DNA from: Ignavibacteriota bacterium
Lineage (GTDB): Bacteria; Bacteroidota; Ignavibacteria; Kapaibacteriales; UBA2268
Length of the DNA: 44,653 nucleotides
Assembly (NCBI GenBank): GCA_024636855.1
Contig: JAGXGG010000034.1
Coordinates: 1-44,653, forward strand
Direction of reading: 5' to 3'
How positions within the stretch are numbered: the stretch's first letter is position 1; every line of letters begins with the position of its first letter. Shown one piece after another: positions 3,977-22,235 of the stretch. The notes beneath the pieces were generated by a model, which was not told the DNA's origin, ran no database searches, and was given only the letters and a program-made list of their open reading frames with translations. Both the position numbers and the translations under genes were made by a program.

Positions 3977-4873
3977 TTACATCTCTGTAAAGAAACTATA
4001 TTTATCAAATTCCTTTAATAAATCTTGTTTAATTAATGATATTGAACTATTTGCATCGAACATAGTATCATCATTTGAAGTGAAAATTTCTGGACCAACG
4101 AAAAGCTTTGAATCAGTCATTTCACTGTTCCAAGTCATAAACCCTAATTCCTTTGCAAAATATTCTGATAACGCAACGGCAATAGTTAATGGCTGTTCAT
4201 TTATAACATCTTTTACATCTACATTGCTAAAATAATAATGATGATTTTTAAGTGCTATACAAATCTTAGAAGGTAGATTCCATTTATCAGCTAACCAAGA
4301 TGCAACTTCTGCATGATTAGTTTGCAATATCTTTTGTTCAGCTTGCACTAGTGAATACCTACTATCCATTTCTAACTGTATCAGAACTTCTTTATATTCA
4401 TGTGAAAAATAAGTACTCAATAAAAGTACACCCATATCATGCATTAGCCCTGTTACAAATGATTCGCCTAATGGTCTATATTTTAATTTACCAGCAAAAT
4501 ATTTTGTTGCACCAGCACAGAATATACTGTATTTCCAATATGAATCTAAGTCAATTACAGATTTATGTGAGTTCACAAATATACGTTTGACCATTATACC
4601 AGTTACAATATCACGTATAGTATTTATACCGATTAATGCAATAGCTAGCTCTATAGTAGATATTTTTCTTGTAAATCCATAGTAAGGCGAATTAGCTACT
4701 CTTAGAACTCGAGTAGTTAACATTTGGTCTCTTTCTATAGTCTCTGCAAGATTTTTTGATTTCAAATTTTCGTCATCCAACATTGTCATTATTTCTGTTA
4801 ATACAATGGGAATAGAAGGTAAATCTTCAATCCTAGAAAGACGTTTTATAATATTGTTACTAAGCATACTCAT
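3977..4873 (-). CDS. HDOD domain protein
   Basis: 298 residues. The N-terminal two thirds are a classic HDOD domain: LPSIPIVLTEIMTML at about 18-32, then LTTRVLRVANSPYYGF at 52-67 and the helix IELAIALIGINTIRDIV at 74-90. An HD pair remains at His145-Asp146 (GLMHDMG). HDOD proteins are output or adaptor modules in signalling, often tied to chemotaxis, flagella or cyclic-di-GMP control. The start overlaps the end of fliA by 14 nt and the stop abuts the kinase-like gene, so sigma factor, HDOD protein and sensor are likely made together. The domain call is secure; the signal and partner are inferred from position. Confidence 0.88.
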   Translation of the reverse strand: MSMLSNNIIKRLSRIEDLPSIPIVLTEIMTMLDDENLKSKNLAETIERDQMLTTRVLRVANSPYYGFTRKISTIELAIALIGINTIRDIVTGIMVKRIFVNSHKSVIDLDSYWKYSIFCAGATKYFAGKLKYRPLGESFVTGLMHDMGVLLLSTYFSHEYKEVLIQLEMDSRYSLVQAEQKILQTNHAEVASWLADKWNLPSKICIALKNHHYYFSNVDVKDVINEQPLTIAVALSEYFAKELGFMTWNSEMTDSKLFVGPEIFTSNDDTMFDANSSISLIKQDLLKEFDKYSFFTEM

Positions 4874-5621
4874 ATTTATTTATTTTAACCTTTAATTCTT
4901 TAATGACTTCAGAGTGAATTTGACTTACTCTACCTTCAGTCACATCAATCAGCTTGCCAATTTCTTTAAAAGTTAAATTTTCGTAATAATAAAGAGCTAT
5001 TACTAGTCTTTTTTTCTCTGGTAAATCTTTCAAATACGTAGTTAGGAAATCTACTTTTTCTGTTTCAATCAGATCATCTAATTGATTGACTTCATTATCG
5101 TAAGTAACATTATCCACCAACGAATACCCTTCGTTATCCGTATCAACACTGCTATCTATGAATGAAAGTGTGTTACGTGAGGCTTCCATAGCTTGCAAAT
5201 AGCTGTTATATTGCTCGCTTGTTAAATCTAATTTATTGATTATCTCTTCGTCAGATACTTCAATTCCATTTTCCTTTAGCGTTTTTTCTTTTATTTCATT
5301 TATACTATTTACTTTTTTCCTTGCAGTACGAGATAACCAGTCTAATTTTCTCAATTCATCTTGTATCGTACCTCGAACTCTAGTAATAGCATAACTTTCG
5401 AATTTTACATTTTTATCTAAATCAAATCTATCTATTGATTGACTAAGTCCTATCATCCCAATATTTACTAAATCTCCTCTTTCTAGAATTGAATTATCTG
5501 GAACTTTGAGTTTACTCAATACATAATTGACTATCCAAGAATATTGAACAAATAATTTGCCCCGTAATTCCTGATTAGGATCTTGTTTGTATTCTAACCA
5601 TATATTTTCAGATATGTTCAT
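4860..5621 (-). CDS. fliA: Flagellar/stress-type sigma factor, FliA/WhiG family (sigma-28)
   Basis: 253 residues, the usual size for FliA. Region 2 is at about 45-97 (RGDLVNIGMIGLSQSIDRFD, FESYAITRVRGTIQDELR, then LDWLSR, the characteristic FliA/WhiG start of region 3). Region 4 is at about 205-250 (LPEKKRLVIALYYYENLTF, IGKLIDVTEGRVSQIHSE), a helix-turn-helix for -35 recognition. It directs RNA polymerase to late flagellar and motility promoters. The position downstream of flhF and flhG is the common arrangement in polar flagellates and supports fliA rather than a sporulation sigma factor. No flgM is seen nearby. The start at ATG 5621 lies 24 nt after the upstream gene. Confidence 0.9.
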   Translation of the reverse strand: MNISENIWLEYKQDPNQELRGKLFVQYSWIVNYVLSKLKVPDNSILERGDLVNIGMIGLSQSIDRFDLDKNVKFESYAITRVRGTIQDELRKLDWLSRTARKKVNSINEIKEKTLKENGIEVSDEEIINKLDLTSEQYNSYLQAMEASRNTLSFIDSSVDTDNEGYSLVDNVTYDNEVNQLDDLIETEKVDFLTTYLKDLPEKKRLVIALYYYENLTFKEIGKLIDVTEGRVSQIHSEVIKELKVKINKYEYA

Positions 5622-5645: not shown

Positions 5646-6059
5646 TTATTCGTTTTCTTGTATTGATTCATTCATTATTCTGTCCATCTCGTCTTCTTCA
5701 TAATCAAAATTTTGATTAGTACTTTTTTCGCTCTCTTTCTTTGATTCATTGACTTTGATTCTATAGAGTGAATAAAAGAAAATAAGAACAATTAGTCCTA
5801 CACCAACATAAATAGTCGAAAATATTAGAAATGCACGATAGCTACTCTCTACTATATCAAACTCCGAACCAAAATAGAAAACTAAAAAACCTATAATAGT
5901 AAACATAAGTGCAGCAAGTAGTAGACTTTTGAATGGGGAAATTACTATTTTGTTTGCCTTTTTTTGTTCTTCTTTTTGACGTTTCTTTAGCTCTTTTTCT
6001 TTTTCTTTTTGGGCTTTTGTATCAATTTCTTTTGATTTTGCTAATTCTTTTTCATCCAT
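5646..6059 (-). CDS. Small basic coiled-coil protein with two membrane spans
   Basis: 137 residues, not recognised. Residues 1-38 are a charged Lys/Glu/Gln-rich helix (KEKEKELKKRQKEEQKKANK), probably a short cytoplasmic coiled coil. Two membrane spans follow at about 46-64 and 77-98, then an acidic tail ending DEMDRIMNESIQENE. It begins 1 nt after the flhG stop and sits 24 nt before fliA, in the place where polar flagellates often carry small accessory genes. An inferred role is a membrane anchor or partner for FlhF/FlhG, but nothing in the sequence proves it. Confidence 0.65.
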   Translation of the reverse strand: MDEKELAKSKEIDTKAQKEKEKELKKRQKEEQKKANKIVISPFKSLLLAALMFTIIGFLVFYFGSEFDIVESSYRAFLIFSTIYVGVGLIVLIFFYSLYRIKVNESKKESEKSTNQNFDYEEDEMDRIMNESIQENE

Positions 6060-6060
6060 A

Positions 6061-6246
6061 CTATCTATTCTCTTTTATTAGATTATTAGATTTCAAATAC
6101 TGTTCAATTCGACCGCAAATATCGTGCAAGTTTTTAGAAACTGGTAAATTATTATTACTTATTGTGATTAATTCTTGAGTTTGAATAGATTTTCTAACTT
6201 CTCTATCATATGGTATAAATCCAACATTATTAAAATTTACTCCCAA
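6061..6246 (-). CDS. flhG: C-terminal part of FlhG, out of frame with the first part
   Basis: About 61 residues that continue the MinD/FlhG fold: GVNFNNVGFIPYDREVRKSI matches the conserved C-terminal strand and helix of FlhG/MinD (a GxIPxD-type motif followed by V-x-x-A/S-I/V). The only possible independent start is TTG at 6246 inside the upstream gene, without a ribosome binding site, so this is not a convincing separate gene. Adding one T to the T5 run at 6245-6249, or a -1 slip there, joins it smoothly to the upstream part, giving about 258 residues, close to normal FlhG length. Read it together with the N-terminal part. Confidence 0.75.
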   Translation of the reverse strand: MGVNFNNVGFIPYDREVRKSIQTQELITISNNNLPVSKNLHDICGRIEQYLKSNNLIKENR

Positions 6247-6833
6247 AAACTTATTTGTAGAAGGTTTATCTTATTTATTATTTCTTCGTAATCTTCTTCA
6301 TCTATCACATTATTTACTAATATACCTATCTTATCTGATTCTACAAATGGTAAAATTAATTTTAGTAGTCCGTATGAATCAACTATAGTTGTTGGTTCAT
6401 CTGTAATTAATACAATTGATAAATCAGACAAAATGCAAGATTCAAGAACTAATTCACCAGCACCCGGCATAGTATCTATGACCACAAAGTCATATTGATT
6501 TAGTGCTTTTATTTCCTGATAAATTTCATAGAATTTTTCGCTGTGTTCGCTATCGTGTCTATCACTAAGAGGGCTATCTATTATTAAATCAAAATCTTGC
6601 TTTACTTTGAAAATAGTATCTTTGAATTTTACATTTGAACTAATATAATCATTCAATCTAAGTGGAGGATCAACACCTAATATCAGATGCAAATTTGGAA
6701 AGTTTAGATTTGAATCCCAAAGCAGAGTCTTACCTTTTTGAGAAAGTAGATGCGCAAGATTAGCAGCGACGAAGCTTTTACTAACACCACCTTTACCACT
6801 ACAAATAGTTATAAATTTTGTCGCTTTATCCAT
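6237..6833 (-). CDS. flhG: FlhG (MinD-like ATPase), N-terminal part, frameshifted
   Basis: 198 residues of a MinD/ParA-type ATPase that controls flagellar number together with FlhF. The deviant Walker A is at residues 13-20 (GKGGVSKS, where KGGVGKS/T is usual), the first acidic switch at LLWDSNLNFPNLHLILG and the second at VVIDTMPGAGE. The segment VLITDEPTTIVDSYGLLKLI matches the FlhG/MinD PEPT(S)-x-x-DAY region. The frame ends early at a TAA (6237-6239) immediately after a T5 run, and the missing C-terminus is encoded in the -1 frame. The start overlaps the end of flhF by 8 nt. Either the genome truly has a frameshift, ribosomes slip, or one base was lost in sequencing or assembly. Confidence 0.85.
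   Translation of the reverse strand: MDKATKFITICSGKGGVSKSFVAANLAHLLSQKGKTLLWDSNLNFPNLHLILGVDPPLRLNDYISSNVKFKDTIFKVKQDFDLIIDSPLSDRHDSEHSEKFYEIYQEIKALNQYDFVVIDTMPGAGELVLESCILSDLSIVLITDEPTTIVDSYGLLKLILPFVESDKIGILVNNVIDEEDYEEIINKINLLQISFWE
6244..6252 (-). other. Apparent -1 frameshift site within flhG
   Basis: On the minus strand the codons AGT-TTT-TGG-GAG-TAA end the first flhG frame. Re-reading one T (6246) gives AGT-TTT-TTG-GGA-GTA and continues into the conserved FlhG C-terminus. The Phe codon TTT can re-pair as TTT one base back, so a single-tRNA slip is possible, but there is no perfect X-XXY-YYZ heptamer. A homopolymer error is the simplest alternative. Confidence 0.7.
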
Positions 6834-7815
6834 TACTAAGTATCATCTTTTTAATCCCACTTACATCTGCTAATTCTATGTCATCAGGTATATTTGAGCC
6901 ATTTGTATAAAAACAAAATGTCAGATTCTTATTAATCAGAAGCTCAATTATTGGTTGAATTTCAAATTTTTCATCTAATCCAGTTAGACCTATATAGCTA
7001 CTACTATATTCATTTAATTTTGTTAATAAATAATTTTTAGTACTATTTACAGGTAAGATTAGTATGTTTTCAAGATTCGTATTTGTATATTTTGATTTAC
7101 TGTCAAAGTCAATCAAAATTAGATCATAAGCTTTTTTATTCTCTATTAACCGGTTAAGCTCTTCTTCGGATCCTGCTTTTTCAAAATTCAAATCTAGCAT
7201 TTTACAGTAGGCAGCCAATAAATCATTGGCTCCAAAATTGTGATTATTCGCACCAATTACTAGAACATTTGATGAATTCATTATTTTGTGAATAACAGCA
7301 AACTTTAACAAAGTTGATGATTTACCTACACCTGATGGACCAACAAATCCGTAAATTTTACGGGAAATTCGTTTTTGAAATAAATTCTCAATTTTAATTC
7401 TACTTATGATTGAATTAAGCAAATCGTTTTCTGATATATCTAGATTATTAGATTTAGAAAGTGCTTGTAAACTAGGTCCAATAAAGGTTTCGTCGAAACC
7501 TAATTTTTTTAGATAAAGATACTTTTCTGAAAGATTATTATCTAAGTATCTCAGGAGTGGATAATTAATAGATTCTATGAGGCTATCTATTTTACCCTTT
7601 TCTATTTCTTGAACCTCTGTTCTTGATTTAGATTCAACTTTAGGTATGTTTTTTATTTTTTCATCAATAGCCGCAACTATCTCAATAGTGTCCTTTCCAG
7701 TTTCACTATTTTTAATATTTCTTGTAGATAGTATTATTGCATCTTCCCCAAGTTCTTTTTTTATAAGAACTTTACCTTCACTAAGGTTTTCAGCAATTAT
7801 CTTCTTTATTCTCAT
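6826..7815 (-). CDS. flhF: FlhF-like SRP-family GTPase with degenerate motifs
   Basis: 329 residues, somewhat short for FlhF. The N-terminus (MRIKKIIAENLSEGKVLIKK, LGEDAIILSTR) is the FlhF signature, and the P-loop GPSGVGKS is intact at 159-166. The C-terminus keeps the FlhF ending TNGSNIPDDIELAD at 304-317. Other nucleotide motifs are lost: the DTYRxGA box reads NNHNFGA (190-196), DTAGR reads DFDSK (236-240), and TKLD reads TGLD (278-281). FlhF localises the flagellum to the pole and works with FlhG. This copy probably binds a nucleotide poorly or without GTP specificity, and may act as a scaffold. It is the first gene of the minus-strand string; 104 nt separate it from the gene upstream. 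Confidence 0.85.
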   Translation of the reverse strand: MRIKKIIAENLSEGKVLIKKELGEDAIILSTRNIKNSETGKDTIEIVAAIDEKIKNIPKVESKSRTEVQEIEKGKIDSLIESINYPLLRYLDNNLSEKYLYLKKLGFDETFIGPSLQALSKSNNLDISENDLLNSIISRIKIENLFQKRISRKIYGFVGPSGVGKSSTLLKFAVIHKIMNSSNVLVIGANNHNFGANDLLAAYCKMLDLNFEKAGSEEELNRLIENKKAYDLILIDFDSKSKYTNTNLENILILPVNSTKNYLLTKLNEYSSSYIGLTGLDEKFEIQPIIELLINKNLTFCFYTNGSNIPDDIELADVSGIKKMILSNG

Positions 7816-10498: not shown

Positions 10499-11374
10499 AT
10501 GAGCCTGGAAATAAATTTTTCTGCAAAAGTGTTTGAAAATAGAAAGAGAAAGTATAACGAATATGATGAGATAGCTCTTACTATTAGACAAGATATTATT
10601 AAAAGTTTAGTTCTAGCTAAGTCAGGTCACCCTGGTGGTCCCCTTGGTATTACTGATGTTATGTCTGTATTGTTTTTTGGAAGTGTGATGAAATATGACC
10701 CTTCGAATTCAGATTGGTCAGAAAGAGATAGGTTCGTACTTTCAGCTGGACACATGGCACCAGTTCAATATTCTACATTAGCTAGAGCCGGTTATTTCCC
10801 AACTGAAGAGTTGAAAACATTAAGAAAATACGGTTCTAGATTGCAAGGACATCCAGGATTAGACATGCATTTACCTGGTATAGAAACTTCATCGGGATCG
10901 TTAGGTCAAGGTGTCTCAATTGCTGTAGGAATGGCTATGTCAGACTGGATAATAGACAAAAATGATAGAAAAGTATTTTGCATAACTGGCGATGGGGAAT
11001 TACAAGAAGGTGCTAGTTGGGAAGCTGCAATGGCAGCTGGCAGCCACCGATTAAGTAACTTTTGTTGGATAGTTGACAATAATGATTGTCAAATAGATGG
11101 AAGAGTAACAGATATACTTTCAGTTTATCCCTTAAAAGAGAAGTTTGAAGCTTTTAATTTTGATGTTATTGAAATTGATGGCCATAACTATCAACAAATT
11201 CAAGCAGCCTTTGATAAATTTGAAGAAAATCATAAAAACAATGGATTACCAACTTGTATAATAGCAAAAACATTTATGGGTAAAGGTGTTTCATTCATGA
11301 ATGATGAATATAAATGGCACGGGAATCCACCGAATGAAGAGCAAGCTGAAACAGCATTATCTGAACTAATATAA
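10499..11374 (+). CDS. Transketolase, N-terminal subunit
   Basis: 291 residues, the size of the separate N-terminal subunit of split transketolases. It carries the thiamine-diphosphate domain: SGHPGGPLG at 42-50, GSLGQGVSIAVGMA, and the metal/diphosphate motif GDGELQEGASWEA followed by VDNNDCQIDG. With the C-terminal subunit it moves two-carbon units between ketose and aldose phosphates in the non-oxidative pentose phosphate pathway, in the cytoplasm. The stop overlaps the next ATG by one base (TAATG), and the next gene is a lipoprotein rather than the partner subunit. Confidence 0.92.
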   Translation: MSLEINFSAKVFENRKRKYNEYDEIALTIRQDIIKSLVLAKSGHPGGPLGITDVMSVLFFGSVMKYDPSNSDWSERDRFVLSAGHMAPVQYSTLARAGYFPTEELKTLRKYGSRLQGHPGLDMHLPGIETSSGSLGQGVSIAVGMAMSDWIIDKNDRKVFCITGDGELQEGASWEAAMAAGSHRLSNFCWIVDNNDCQIDGRVTDILSVYPLKEKFEAFNFDVIEIDGHNYQQIQAAFDKFEENHKNNGLPTCIIAKTFMGKGVSFMNDEYKWHGNPPNEEQAETALSELI

Positions 11375-11982
11375 TGAAGAAGTTAGGCATCATAGCATTT
11401 TTATTACTTATTATGATTTCTTGTGATTCAAATGAACCAGAAGATGTTGATCTTATAAAAGATAGTACTAAATCTAATTCAGGATTAACTGAATTACAGT
11501 TCAATGATAATGTAAAGCATAAAGTTAGTAAAGAAAAGACTATAGAAGTAGAAGGTAAGGAACTGATAACTCCGAATAGATTATTTGATTTCTACCCTAG
11601 TTCTATTAAAAATATTAAACTTGAGAAATCCTCTTCTGGTCAAACTCGCTCCGGTTTGGGACGTTATACTACTTCTACGGGAGTATATGAGACCAAAGGC
11701 AAGCTAATAAAAGTTAGAGTATCTGATTATTATAGCAAGGAGTTTTTTCCTGACTATCAATTAATGATAGATTTACCTAATGAAGATCCAGGATTTATTC
11801 TTACTAGATTAGATTTGAAAGAAGGGTATATCGGTTATATGCGTTGGGAAGAAAACTATAAGTATGGGTATATTAGCTTATTTATACAAGATAGATTCCA
11901 TGTACTTATTGATATCGAAGGATTCTCTGATTTGAAAGATAGTTACAAAGACTTAGTATATAAATTCAATTTCGAAAATTAA
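11374..11982 (+). CDS. Lipoprotein of unknown function between transketolase subunits
   Basis: 202 residues. A short signal (MKKLGIIAFLLLIMIS) ends in a lipobox with Cys17, so it should be lipidated and leave the cytoplasm. A charged Ser/Asp-rich linker runs to about 55, then a folded, aromatic-rich alpha/beta segment to the end (LFDFYPSSIKNIKLEKSSSG, YGYISLFIQDRFHVLID). I do not recognise a family. It overlaps the stop of the N-terminal transketolase subunit by one base and is followed 18 nt later by the C-terminal subunit, so all three should be co-translated. The base composition looks like its neighbours, so recent transfer is not indicated. A metabolic link to transketolase is not obvious; it may simply be a stable insertion in the operon. 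Confidence 0.8.
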   Translation: MKKLGIIAFLLLIMISCDSNEPEDVDLIKDSTKSNSGLTELQFNDNVKHKVSKEKTIEVEGKELITPNRLFDFYPSSIKNIKLEKSSSGQTRSGLGRYTTSTGVYETKGKLIKVRVSDYYSKEFFPDYQLMIDLPNEDPGFILTRLDLKEGYIGYMRWEENYKYGYISLFIQDRFHVLIDIEGFSDLKDSYKDLVYKFNFEN

Positions 11983-12000
11983 TAATATATAATATATAAA

Positions 12001-13017
12001 ATGACAAAAATAGAAAGTTACGGTAATAAGCCGACTAGAGATGGATTTGGACTAGGGTTAGTTGAATTAGGAGAGAAGGATGAAAGAATTGTGGTTATCG
12101 GTGCAGATGTATCGGGCTCAGTAAAAACATCTTATTTTCAAGATAGATTTCCTGAAAGATTTATATCTGTAGGTGTAGCAGAACAAAATGCGACTACTGT
12201 AGCTGTAGGACTAGCTTTATCAGGTAAAGTCCCTTTTTTCTCTAGTTATAGTGCATTTGCAGCATTTAGAAATGCTGACCAAATTCGTGTTTCTATATGT
12301 TATAATGAAGCAAATGTAAAAATAGGTGGTGGACATTCCGGTTTAACAGTTGGTCCTGATGGTGCAACACATCAATCATTAGAAGAAGTAGCATTCTTGA
12401 GAACATTACCTAATATGACCCTTATTTGTCCAGCTGATTTCGAACAAGCTAAAAAAGCAACTATTGCAATTGGAGAAATGGTTGGACCGGCATATTTGAG
12501 ATTTGGAAGACCTTCTGTTCCAATGTTTACTAAACCAGAAGATGAATTTATAATAGGTAAAGCTGATTTGTTAAGAGAAGGAACTGACGTTTCTATCGTG
12601 GCGAACGGCATTATGGTTTGGGAAGCATTAAAAGCTGCTGAAGCATTAAAAGAAAAACATAATATAAATGCTGAAGTTATAAATTGTCACACTATTAAAC
12701 CAATAGATGAAGAAGCTTTAGTTAATTCGGCAAAAAAATGTGGTGCTATGGTAACTGCAGAAGAGCATCAAGTTCATGGCGGTCTAAGTGGTGCAGTAGC
12801 AGAAGTATTAGTTAAGAATTATCCAATACCAATGGAATTTGTAGGTGTCAAAGATACTTTTGGTGGTAGTGGCGAACCTTTCGAATTAACTGAGTTATTT
12901 GGTTTAACTTGGAAAGAAATATATGCATCTGCTTTATTCGCAATAGATAGAAAGAAGAATGGAACTAGTTCTATACGAAAAGTGAAAGATGTTGCTATAT
13001 ATACAGATGGAATATAA
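12001..13017 (+). CDS. Transketolase, C-terminal subunit
   Basis: 338 residues covering the pyrimidine-binding and C-terminal domains. Key features are GADVSGSVKT near residue 34, the conserved Glu in VGVAEQNA near residue 60, the substrate/cofactor segment SSYSAFAAFRNADQIR, and GGHSGLTVGPDGATHQ. It pairs with the N-terminal subunit encoded upstream. It is the last gene before an intrinsic terminator at 13042-13068. No Shine-Dalgarno motif is seen in the 18-nt gap before it. Confidence 0.92.
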   Translation: MTKIESYGNKPTRDGFGLGLVELGEKDERIVVIGADVSGSVKTSYFQDRFPERFISVGVAEQNATTVAVGLALSGKVPFFSSYSAFAAFRNADQIRVSICYNEANVKIGGGHSGLTVGPDGATHQSLEEVAFLRTLPNMTLICPADFEQAKKATIAIGEMVGPAYLRFGRPSVPMFTKPEDEFIIGKADLLREGTDVSIVANGIMVWEALKAAEALKEKHNINAEVINCHTIKPIDEEALVNSAKKCGAMVTAEEHQVHGGLSGAVAEVLVKNYPIPMEFVGVKDTFGGSGEPFELTELFGLTWKEIYASALFAIDRKKNGTSSIRKVKDVAIYTDGI

Positions 13018-19772: not shown

Positions 19773-20468
19773 ATGTTAACTAAATTTCAAAAATACTTAT
19801 CTGAAATCGTATATGGTGGTATTGATGGTAGTGTTACTACGTTTGCAGTAGTAGCTGGTGCTGTAGGAGCAGATTTAGGATCATCTGTTATTTTAATTCT
19901 TGGTTTTGCTAATCTAGTTGCGGATGGATTTTCTATGGCCGTAGGAGCATATCTTTCATCAAAAGCTGCTCATGAAAAATTTCATAAGATAGAAAATTTA
20001 GTTGAAAAAGGTTTTGAAACACAGAGAAATTTGGATATAGAAAAAATAGAATATATTTATAAATCAAAAGGGCTTACTGGAGAATTATTGGATAGTTTAA
20101 CTGCAGAAACAATATCGAATAAGAAGCTATATATAGATTTCAATATGAAGGAGGTTAATGAAATGATGCACCCTGAACTCACGTCGTTTAATATTGGATT
20201 AGCTACATTTATATCTTTCTTTTTAGTGGGTTTAATTCCACTTTCTTTCTATGTTTATGAATTAATACTAGGAATAGAGTCCAATGGCAATTCTTTTATT
20301 GTTACTTGTGTATTAACTTCCTTAGCTTTTATATTAATTGGATACTTTAAGAGCTATATAACAGATAGAAATAAGATGAAGTCAATTCTAGAAACTGTTT
20401 TTTTAGGTGCAATTGCGGCAATACTATCATATTTTCTAGGAAGTTTCCTCGAAGGAATAATTACTTAG
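19773..20468 (+). CDS. VIT1/CCC1-family metal ion transporter
   Basis: 231 residues. IVYGGIDGSVTTFAVVAGAV at 12-31 and ANLVADGFSMAVGAYLSSKA at 46-65 are the family signature. These form the first two membrane spans; a charged helical metal-binding region follows at about 66-125 and three more spans at about 142-164, 175-193 and 205-228. Members export Fe2+ or Mn2+ from the cytoplasm. It stands alone on the plus strand, and its 3' end overlaps the convergent motB by 8 nt. Confidence 0.9.
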   Translation: MLTKFQKYLSEIVYGGIDGSVTTFAVVAGAVGADLGSSVILILGFANLVADGFSMAVGAYLSSKAAHEKFHKIENLVEKGFETQRNLDIEKIEYIYKSKGLTGELLDSLTAETISNKKLYIDFNMKEVNEMMHPELTSFNIGLATFISFFLVGLIPLSFYVYELILGIESNGNSFIVTCVLTSLAFILIGYFKSYITDRNKMKSILETVFLGAIAAILSYFLGSFLEGIIT

Positions 20469-21387
20469 TCGCTTCTTCTAAGCCTTCAATCATTCCTTTC
20501 TTTTGCTCTAAGAAATCTTTAGATTTGATATATTTTAGATAAATAGTTACTCTTCTATTCTCATTAGCAAATGGGTTATCTTTGTTTACTAATTCCTTGT
20601 CTGCATATCCAGCAACAACACTTATTTGACCATTCCAAAGTCCCTTAGATTCCATATATTTACGAGTAGAGTTCGCTCTGTCAGATGATAAATCCCAGTT
20701 ACTATAACCTTTGGAATTACCATATTTTCGGCTATCTGTATGTCCTTGAATTTCGACAGAATTTGGAAGTTTACCAATTTCTTTAGCTAAGAGGGCAATT
20801 ATTTTCTGCCCTTTGGGATTTATTTTAGAACTTCCAACTTCGAAAAATAGATTTTCATTGTTCTCAACTAATTCAATTTTGAGACCATCTTCAGTAAAAG
20901 TAAATTTTACGGATTCGGAGAAGTCAGATAAACCAGAAGTCGAATTAATCAAACCTTCTATGAATTCTTGTAATTCCTCAGCAGATGATTTCAGATTTTC
21001 AGCAGCTTCTATACTATCTCTAATAGCTTCATTCATTAGTTGCTTTAGAGATTGAGATTCACTATCTATATTGTTATCTTCAATGTTTCCACCTCCGTCT
21101 CCAACCATCTCTCCTAAAATACTTCCAGGTATTGGTTTGAGCCCTGACTCAGTGGCTACAGCTCTTTTCCCCGTAACAAAACTAAATGCTCCTGGATCAT
21201 CGAAATAAGCTTGAATCTGATCTTGAGTTTCTTCACTGGCTGAAAGAATCCATAAAACAATAAACAAAGCCATCATCGCAGTTACGAAATCAGCATATGC
21301 TACTTTCCAAGCACCACCATGATGTCCACCGGCAACTTTATTAATTTTCTTAATTATTATGGGTTGTTTTTCTTCTTCTTCAGCCAT
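20461..21387 (-). CDS. motB: Flagellar motor stator protein MotB
   Basis: 308 residues. One membrane span at about 29-50 contains the proton-carrying Asp33 (KVAYADFVTAMMALFIVLW). A linker/plug region follows, and an OmpA-type peptidoglycan-binding domain at about 170-295 (LFFEVGSSKINPKGQKI, EIQGHTDSRKYG, LSSDRANSTRKYM, NENRRVTI). MotB anchors the stator to the cell wall and conducts ions together with MotA. Its start abuts the motA stop. The linker is rather long and acidic. Confidence 0.93.
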   Translation of the reverse strand: MAEEEEKQPIIIKKINKVAGGHHGGAWKVAYADFVTAMMALFIVLWILSASEETQDQIQAYFDDPGAFSFVTGKRAVATESGLKPIPGSILGEMVGDGGGNIEDNNIDSESQSLKQLMNEAIRDSIEAAENLKSSAEELQEFIEGLINSTSGLSDFSESVKFTFTEDGLKIELVENNENLFFEVGSSKINPKGQKIIALLAKEIGKLPNSVEIQGHTDSRKYGNSKGYSNWDLSSDRANSTRKYMESKGLWNGQISVVAGYADKELVNKDNPFANENRRVTIYLKYIKSKDFLEQKKGMIEGLEEATK

Positions 21388-22235
21388 TATCTTTTCAATG
21401 CTCCTTCAGCTTCTTCAAAAGTAGGTCTCATTTGGGGTTCAATTACTCTTCTACCATATTCAATCGCCACTGTAGCAGGTAAACCTTTAGAAAAAGCCAA
21501 AAGTGAAACTTTGATACAACTCATATATGAACTTTCACTTTCTATCATTAAACCTATATTTCTTGCTAATGGCCCAGCGATACCATAAGATAATAGTACT
21601 CCTAAGAATGTACCAACTAGGGCAGCAGCTACGTGTGCACCTACAGTCTCAGCACCTTCACTAACTGAACCCATCGTTATAATTACACCAAGTACAGCAG
21701 CAACAATACCAATCGCGGGGAAGGCATCAGAGACTGTATTCAGGGCATGTGCGACTTCGTGTTCTTCTTTGTGTAATGCTTCTAAATCTATATCCATCAA
21801 CTCTTCCAAATCGTATGGTGGAATACCACCACTCAAAAGTACTTTTAATGTATCACACAGGAAGACCTCAGCGTGATGATTCGCTAAAAATGAAGGGTAC
21901 TTTGAAAAAATTGAACTACTTTTTGGCTCTTCAACGTGTTTCTCTAAAGCGATTAAGCCTTCTTTTTTGGCAAATTGAAATGTCTCATATAGTAATTGGA
22001 TTAAATCTAAAAATGCTTCTTTGCTTACGTCTGGACCTTTCATTGTTTTCATTACGCCTGCAAAAACACCCTTTACTATATGCATTGGGTTTGCTACAAG
22101 CATAGAACCTAATGCAACTCCACCAATGATAATAAACTCACTGGGCTGTATAAGAACTAATAGATTACCACCATGCATCATATAACCACCGAGCATGGAT
22201 GCCATAACTAGAACCAATCCAATAATTACAAACAT
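21387..22235 (-). CDS. motA: Flagellar motor stator protein MotA
   Basis: 282 residues with four membrane spans (about 2-20, 32-48, 171-189 and 201-221). Pro173 (FPAIGIVAAVLG) and Pro222 (AGPLARNIG) stand at the functionally important proline positions of the E. coli protein, and the cytoplasmic loop between spans 2 and 3 is charged and normal in length. It forms the stator with MotB. The ATG overlaps the stop of the TPR lipoprotein gene by one base. Confidence 0.94.
   Translation of the reverse strand: MFVIIGLVLVMASMLGGYMMHGGNLLVLIQPSEFIIIGGVALGSMLVANPMHIVKGVFAGVMKTMKGPDVSKEAFLDLIQLLYETFQFAKKEGLIALEKHVEEPKSSSIFSKYPSFLANHHAEVFLCDTLKVLLSGGIPPYDLEELMDIDLEALHKEEHEVAHALNTVSDAFPAIGIVAAVLGVIITMGSVSEGAETVGAHVAAALVGTFLGVLLSYGIAGPLARNIGLMIESESSYMSCIKVSLLAFSKGLPATVAIEYGRRVIEPQMRPTFEEAEGALKR

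Follow-up and report, generated by a model that had tools for sequence, protein, structure and literature searches.

In one genus of uncultured Kapabacteria, the active site of the flagellar protein FlhF has been replaced while the protein stays under strong selection. One such gene lies in the window, by which we mean the whole stretch of DNA analysed, 44,653 nucleotides from an Ignavibacteriota bacterium. Our preferred reading, to which we give a probability of roughly 0.6, is that this FlhF is a pseudo-GTPase that still scaffolds flagellar assembly, maybe holding nucleotide as a fixed ligand. The relevant features are listed in Table 1.

Table 1. Position of flhF, its motifs and its neighbours in the window.
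Feature	Position	Strand	Remarks
HDOD-domain protein	3977..4873	(-)	order flhF-flhG-sigma-HDOD recurs in L095
fliA-type sigma factor	4860..5621	(-)	TIGR02479 over cut-off
Small predicted membrane protein	5646..6059	(-)	between flhG and fliA; no family over cut-off
flhG (MinD/ParA-type)	6237..6833	(-)	overlaps flhF; lacks DQAxxLR; frame broken near end
flhF	6826..7815	(-)	329 aa, stop codon within coordinates; predicted hydrolysis-dead FlhF
FlhF residues 1-50, FliG-interaction domain (FID, start of B domain)	7666..7815	(-)	normally conserved
FlhF residues 159-168, G1/P-loop GPSGVGKSST	7312..7341	(-)	GxxxxGK[ST] kept in 4/4 genus species
FlhF residues 187-205, replaced G2/motif II IGANNHNFGANDLLAAYCK	7201..7257	(-)	protein-invariant in genus
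FlhF residues 236-240, replaced G3 DFDSK	7096..7110	(-)	Asp kept, Gly lost
FlhF residues 241-248	7072..7095	(-)	coil in model; genus lacks about 16 residues here
FlhF residues 278-281, replaced G4 TGLD	6973..6984	(-)	Lys lost, Asp kept
motB	20461-21387	(-)	best match MotB, below cut-off; flagellar stator gene
motA	21387-22235	(-)	over TIGR03818 cut-off; flagellar stator gene, same contig as flhF

Motifs of the nucleotide site

In SRP GTPases, the Thr of the G2 motif DTxR is reported to hold the gamma-phosphate and Mg2+, and the Arg acts as a finger; the contacts to Mg2+ and water lie in G3 (DxxG), and guanine is recognised through the G4 Asp (PMC10910532). A preliminary description of the window, made from its letters, had reported an intact P-loop beside altered versions of these motifs, and we confirm each reading. 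The P-loop fits its pattern. Conversely, where DTYRxGA is canonical for G2, the window has NNHNFGA, so both DTxR and the arginine finger are missing; all four genus species have NNHN. The G3 sequence is DFDSK where DTAGR is canonical and does not fit DxxG, with DFDS in all four species. Similarly, G4 is TGLD where TKLD is canonical, and falls outside [TN][KQ]xD; the genus has TGLD or SGLD (4/4). The motif II Gln is also gone, with DLL instead of EQL. This position is Leu throughout the genus (4/4); in the FlhFs of the same family outside the genus it is Gln in 41 of 42 and His in the other. The spacing from G3 to G4 is 36 in the four genus copies, compared with 52 in 41 of those 42 relatives and 57 in one.

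The same description had taken the residues for Mg2+ binding, catalysis and guanine selection to be lost. This is correct for G2, the G3 Gly and the G4 Lys. It is incorrect for two aspartates, D236 of G3 and D281 of G4, which are kept. Because the G4 Asp is still there, guanine selection need not be lost. Nucleotide binding may nonetheless be weak or absent, since the G2 Thr, the contact for gamma-phosphate and Mg2+, has gone.

Identity and context of the gene

The flhF product matches the FlhF profile TIGR03499 with E 3e-37 and 129.2 bits, which is under the curated cut-off of 174.15. Note that no more than 11 of the 54 family genomes reach this cut-off when all six frames are searched, so it shuts out most of the family. 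We regard the protein as an FlhF orthologue by descent and not as a TIGR03499 member by score. The Pfam SRP54 model gives E 7.6e-6 and 26.1 bits, passing its gathering cut-off of 22.7. Beyond SRP54 and FlhF, no family in Pfam or NCBIfam was over cut-off. By sequence, the nearest solved structures are those of FlhF (8r9r and 2px0).

The reading frame at 6826..7815 is the sole FlhF match in the 3.1 Mb genome, and each of the four genus genomes has one FlhF. The single match excludes a paralogue with a second, active copy elsewhere. Each genus genome has two further SRP54-family matches, Ffh and FtsY, whose motifs are intact in all four. The gene order is that expected for FlhF, with flhG directly after flhF and fliA near by. 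All four genus genomes have FlhA, FliG, FliF and four flagellin genes. Between 4800 and 8100, there are 18 promoter-like sites (20.6 expected) and four terminator-like sites (0.6 expected), the latter all within flhF or flhG coding sequence. Elsewhere in the window, at 10499-13017, what appears from its sequence to be a transketolase is in two halves (10499-11374 and 12001-13017). An unrelated lipoprotein-like reading frame (11374-11982) separates them.

Compared with FlhF of B. subtilis and Shewanella putrefaciens (2px0, 2px3, 8r9r), the window protein is alike in its FID/B domain, N domain, G domain fold and P-loop, and in having flhG directly downstream. It differs in the replaced G2, G3, G4 and motif II residues, and in the absence of about 16 residues after G3. 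Furthermore, the FlhG of its system lacks the activator motif. The protein has 329 aa, against about 370-417 aa for other FlhFs of the family.

Selection on flhF within the genus

FlhFs of the other three genus species (contigs include JAUHXN010000036.1 and JAGQWJ010000082.1) are 88, 78 and 75% identical to the window's. Aligned with it, they share its replacements, and the flhF frame is open in all four species, one copy being truncated where its contig ends. The combination that would have spoken against the preliminary description, canonical motifs in close relatives together with other disabling changes in the window's copy, was thus not observed. The replaced motifs are thus common to every genus species in the sample (4/4), encoded by differing codons. 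Such sharing is more than chance.

Whole-gene dN/dS is 0.052-0.087 over the six species pairs, most of which have reached or nearly reached saturation at synonymous sites. For residues 186-208, the range is 0.008 to <0.072. Within residues 187-205, none of 19 positions varies in the four species, whereas 48 of the 160 remaining G-domain positions do (p 0.002, for a region picked after the data were seen). Extending the region to residue 224, a choice made in the same way, gives 4 of 38 variable positions against 44 of 141 elsewhere in the G domain (p 0.012). Because residues 187-205 are invariant as protein while their codons differ, the new motif is maintained in its own right. Conversely, the linker (residues 55-72) shows no constraint, dN/dS reaching 1.9 in one pair over 18 codons. 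The three sister species and the dN/dS values exclude a pseudogene, and bear out the earlier view that decay without selection is unlikely.

Domains and predicted structure

The preliminary description also had the flanking FlhF sequence as well kept. This stands for the FID and fails for the N and G domains, which diverge more than those of any other member in the comparison. In this comparison, one sister copy (L002) represents the genus, and is set against 26 family members with usable FlhF and FlhG. Mean identity of its FID to the other 26 is 0.55, and 0.545 among those 26. For the N domain, the values are 0.189 and 0.248, and for the G domain 0.282 and 0.395, with none of the 26 lower in either case. 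Its FlhG is ordinary (0.382 versus 0.407; 7 of 26 lower).

Structure models were made for the window protein and for L095, an FlhF from a second genus described below. The window model has a pLDDT of 91, and its FID is a strand-helix-strand-strand unit with a pLDDT of about 95. Its best fold match is FlhF 8r9r (Z 24.7, rmsd 2.5, 235 aligned). The next FlhF, 2px3 (Z 23.5, rmsd 2.5, 230 aligned), is tied with FtsY entries (23.1 and 22.9). Foldseek places FlhF at ranks 1-3. Residues 238-248 are modelled as coil, where L095 has a 14-residue helix; the helix comparison is with this one model. For L095, the NG fold is likewise predicted, with a pLDDT of 93.

FlhF and FlhG across the family

We next consider how far the replacements extend. 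From the 54 genomes of the family, we obtained 46 FlhF sequences in 45 genomes (L024 is partly masked); an FlhF fragment from G025 was left out, and eight genomes have no FlhF match of their own. Among the 42 FlhFs outside the genus, the P-loop and the G2 Asp are present in every one (42/42). DxxG and TKxD are each found in 41, the exceptions being L013 and L138 respectively. The arginine finger is retained in just two (L133 and L138) and is Lys in the other 40. Since this change is already so widespread outside the genus, part of the motif loss is, by our reading of these sequences, older than the genus. In 48 distinct FlhFs from other groups, the finger is Arg in 42, the G2 Asp and TKxD occur in all 48, and DxxG in 46.

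Three further observations concern FlhFs in this collection. L133 (G073:C51) is a second FlhF of its family genome, and groups with a Melioribacteraceae copy, L110. The FlhF L055, on a contig labelled Desulfobulbaceae, groups tightly with L131 of the Kapabacteria family, through either a wrong bin or a transfer. Two gammaproteobacterial FlhFs (L059 and L064, one labelled Legionellales) have DLDK at G2 and DTSFS or DSSFS at G3, and an FlhG without activator motif. These two possibly represent a third loss.

FlhG is reported to activate FlhF via the Gln of an N-terminal DQAxxLR motif (PMC12826062). This motif is absent from all 26 family FlhGs examined, the window's included. Eight further distinct family FlhGs gave no fit to the strict pattern; one of the eight, the partner of L133, has a QA-type motif. 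P. aeruginosa FleN is likewise described as lacking the activator motif (PMC12713375). We then drew FlhF/FlhG pairs from many phyla. Of 102 distinct FlhFs, 15 had no FlhG found downstream, leaving 87 pairs. With the strict pattern, an Arg finger is paired with the motif in 32 cases and with none in six; a Lys is paired with the motif once and with none 44 times, and four pairs have Asn and no motif. After the pattern was broadened, having viewed the exceptions, the same pairs divide into 37 (Arg, motif), one (Arg, none), one (non-Arg, motif) and 48 (non-Arg, none). Note that these pairs are related. They contain three independent pairs on well-supported branches, or six on all branches, and a sign test cannot then reach 0.05. 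Since the pairs are non-independent, we present the association of finger and motif as a pattern, without claiming a tested coupling.

In the window, the flhG frame breaks at 6237-6263 (-), and FlhG-like sequence continues in another frame to about 6060. The frame is intact in two complete sister copies, and the third sister copy runs off its contig. The lesion would be either very recent or an assembly error. The Walker A sequence of the window's FlhG is KGGVSKS, compared with KGGVGKS in the three sister species. Of 40 Kapabacteria-type FlhGs, 20 have Asn in place of the second switch I Asp, so this change has no particular link to the FlhF of the window. Four proteobacterial FlhGs (L086, L087, L098 and L105) have a degenerate Walker A and an intact DQAxGL, with largely canonical motifs in FlhF. 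It is possible that these FlhGs are ATPase-dead and still activate FlhF.

A second genus with eroded motifs

Another family of the same order contains a second genus with eroded SRP-GTPase motifs (g31; six species with a match, L159-L164). Its examined FlhF, L095, has the same gene order as the window. The P-loop Lys is replaced in three of six species, by three different residues. The G2 Asp is lost in 3/6 and DxxG in 4/6, and TKLD at G4 is kept in 6/6. FlhF of one species, L160, is almost intact. Since the motifs vary and L160 is almost intact, the site appears to be eroding in g31, rather than being fixed in a new form. Conversely, the window's genus keeps the P-loop and has fixed motifs. 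A FliG match is present in five of six g31 genomes. In the five g31 FlhG copies read (L160-L164), the Walker A GKGG is replaced by GRAG, GRTG or GRPG.

The tree separates the two genera, giving two changes, and a tree that joins them is not rejected (p-AU 0.14). Because the genera belong to different families and show different kinds of loss, we favour two origins of degenerate FlhF in the order.

Comparison with laboratory mutants

GTPase activity is reportedly needed for motility in P. aeruginosa. For Shewanella oneidensis, the same is stated in the literature, and C. jejuni FlhF mutants of the GTP site are described as impaired (PMC12713375). That source also reports that, in P. aeruginosa, GTP and not GDP favours FliG binding, and that laboratory species differ in whether GTP binding, hydrolysis or a mere FlhF tether is needed for flagellar placement. 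A set of motif mutants is available from V. alginolyticus (PMC6092412). There, R334A is reported to abolish GTPase activity and leave flagella normal, while T306A, T436M, D439A and E440K lose flagella. With G380A, flagella remain, polar foci are stronger and motility is lower; with K437A, there are fewer flagella and FlhF is less polar. Note that 11 of 12 motif mutants in this set precipitate, including G380A and K437A.

Mapping by spacing, we infer that the four essential Vibrio positions are kept in the window protein (Ser/Thr166, Thr/Ser278, Asp281 and Glu282), and that the positions lost correspond to R334, G380 and K437. This combination fits a nucleotide that is possibly held and not hydrolysed. 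Against the scaffold reading weigh the precipitation of most Vibrio motif mutants, the K437A phenotype, the GTPase and GTP requirements reported in other laboratory species, and the second FlhF of one family genome (L133), whose FlhG has the QA-type motif. The likeness to V. alginolyticus R334A and P. aeruginosa R251G (PMC6092412) is the loss of hydrolysis, which is predicted here; flagella of the Vibrio mutant are reported as normal. The difference is that the window's genus carries multiple natural, fixed replacements, not one substitution.

Septins, eukaryotic filament proteins with an unrelated function, belong to another class of GTPase than the SRP type. Like FlhF, they pair G domains through the nucleotide site, and they are described as having lost hydrolysis repeatedly, sometimes with non-conservative changes in the pocket (PMC10731463). 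The SRP-type family is itself described as comprising Ffh, FtsY and FlhF only (PMC12826062). In searches of mainly open-access literature, we found no earlier case of a natural SRP-family pseudo-GTPase or degenerate FlhF.

Interpretation

FlhF is reported to act as a tether: FliG binds to its first 44 residues and is then able to recruit FliF, and the polar landmark HubP is bound by NG whatever the nucleotide (PMC11236974). In the window's genus, residues 1-50 would still bind FliG and NG would keep the SRP-GTPase fold. If so, the first ring proteins would still be tethered to the membrane site. GTP hydrolysis would be lost, and GTP and GDP probably no longer told apart, because the protein lacks the Asp and Thr of G2, the arginine finger, the Gln of motif II, the Gly of G3 and the segment that follows G3. 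In particular, without the G2 Thr and the post-G3 stretch, the GTP/GDP signal would not be transmitted. Retention of the P-loop and of the aspartates in G3 and G4 suggests that a nucleotide may remain bound there, as a fixed ligand with a structural role. Release, a step that hydrolysis triggered by FlhG normally sets, would have been given up earlier, since almost the whole family lacks both the FlhG activator motif and the FlhF arginine finger.

More tentatively, and as a possibility that we would not call likely, the Kapabacteria FlhF-FlhG switch may have been dismantled stepwise. Activator and finger would have gone first, followed by the GTP site, probably twice. The window's genus would then have rebuilt the site into a conserved motif, and FlhF would dimerise or bind partners without reading the nucleotide state.

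An unlikely alternative is that the site has been rebuilt for another ligand or chemistry. NNHN and DFD would then make up a novel centre for binding or catalysis, be it for another nucleotide or for hydrolysis with moved residues. The invariance of the replacement motif, its conserved His and Asp residues and the P-loop kept throughout the genus are all compatible with this. However, a conserved surface or dimer contact would look alike, the model shows only a shortened coil after G3, and the profile searches returned SRP54 and FlhF with no other family over cut-off.

Relaxed selection, with FlhF on its way out, is very improbable for the window's genus. It may hold in g31, where motifs drift and the P-loop Lys has given way to three different residues, and the broken flhG frame of the window genome would be in keeping with it. 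This reading is contradicted by a dN/dS of 0.05-0.09, the invariant motif and the open frame in all four species, and both complete sister copies of flhG are intact.

We also give little credence to an NG that now lacks a flagellar role and serves something else. While the marked divergence of the N and G domains could be so explained, the order flhF-flhG-sigma-HDOD, the normally conserved FliG-binding domain and the occurrence of just one FlhF per genome, in four genomes that carry flagellar genes, argue otherwise. A sequencing or assembly artefact has a negligible chance, since the adjoining flhG frame break makes contig errors possible but the same flhF motifs, in different codons, occur in four genomes.

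We return to FlhF as a putative scaffold, predicted to have lost its GTPase activity. A genus in which the active site is replaced and the protein strongly selected would be a natural experiment, isolating the scaffold role of FlhF. The case suggests that an SRP-type GTPase can be converted to a pseudo-GTPase, for which the repeated losses described in septins (PMC10731463) are a precedent. It further suggests that FlhF, a molecular switch, may turn into a fixed scaffold.
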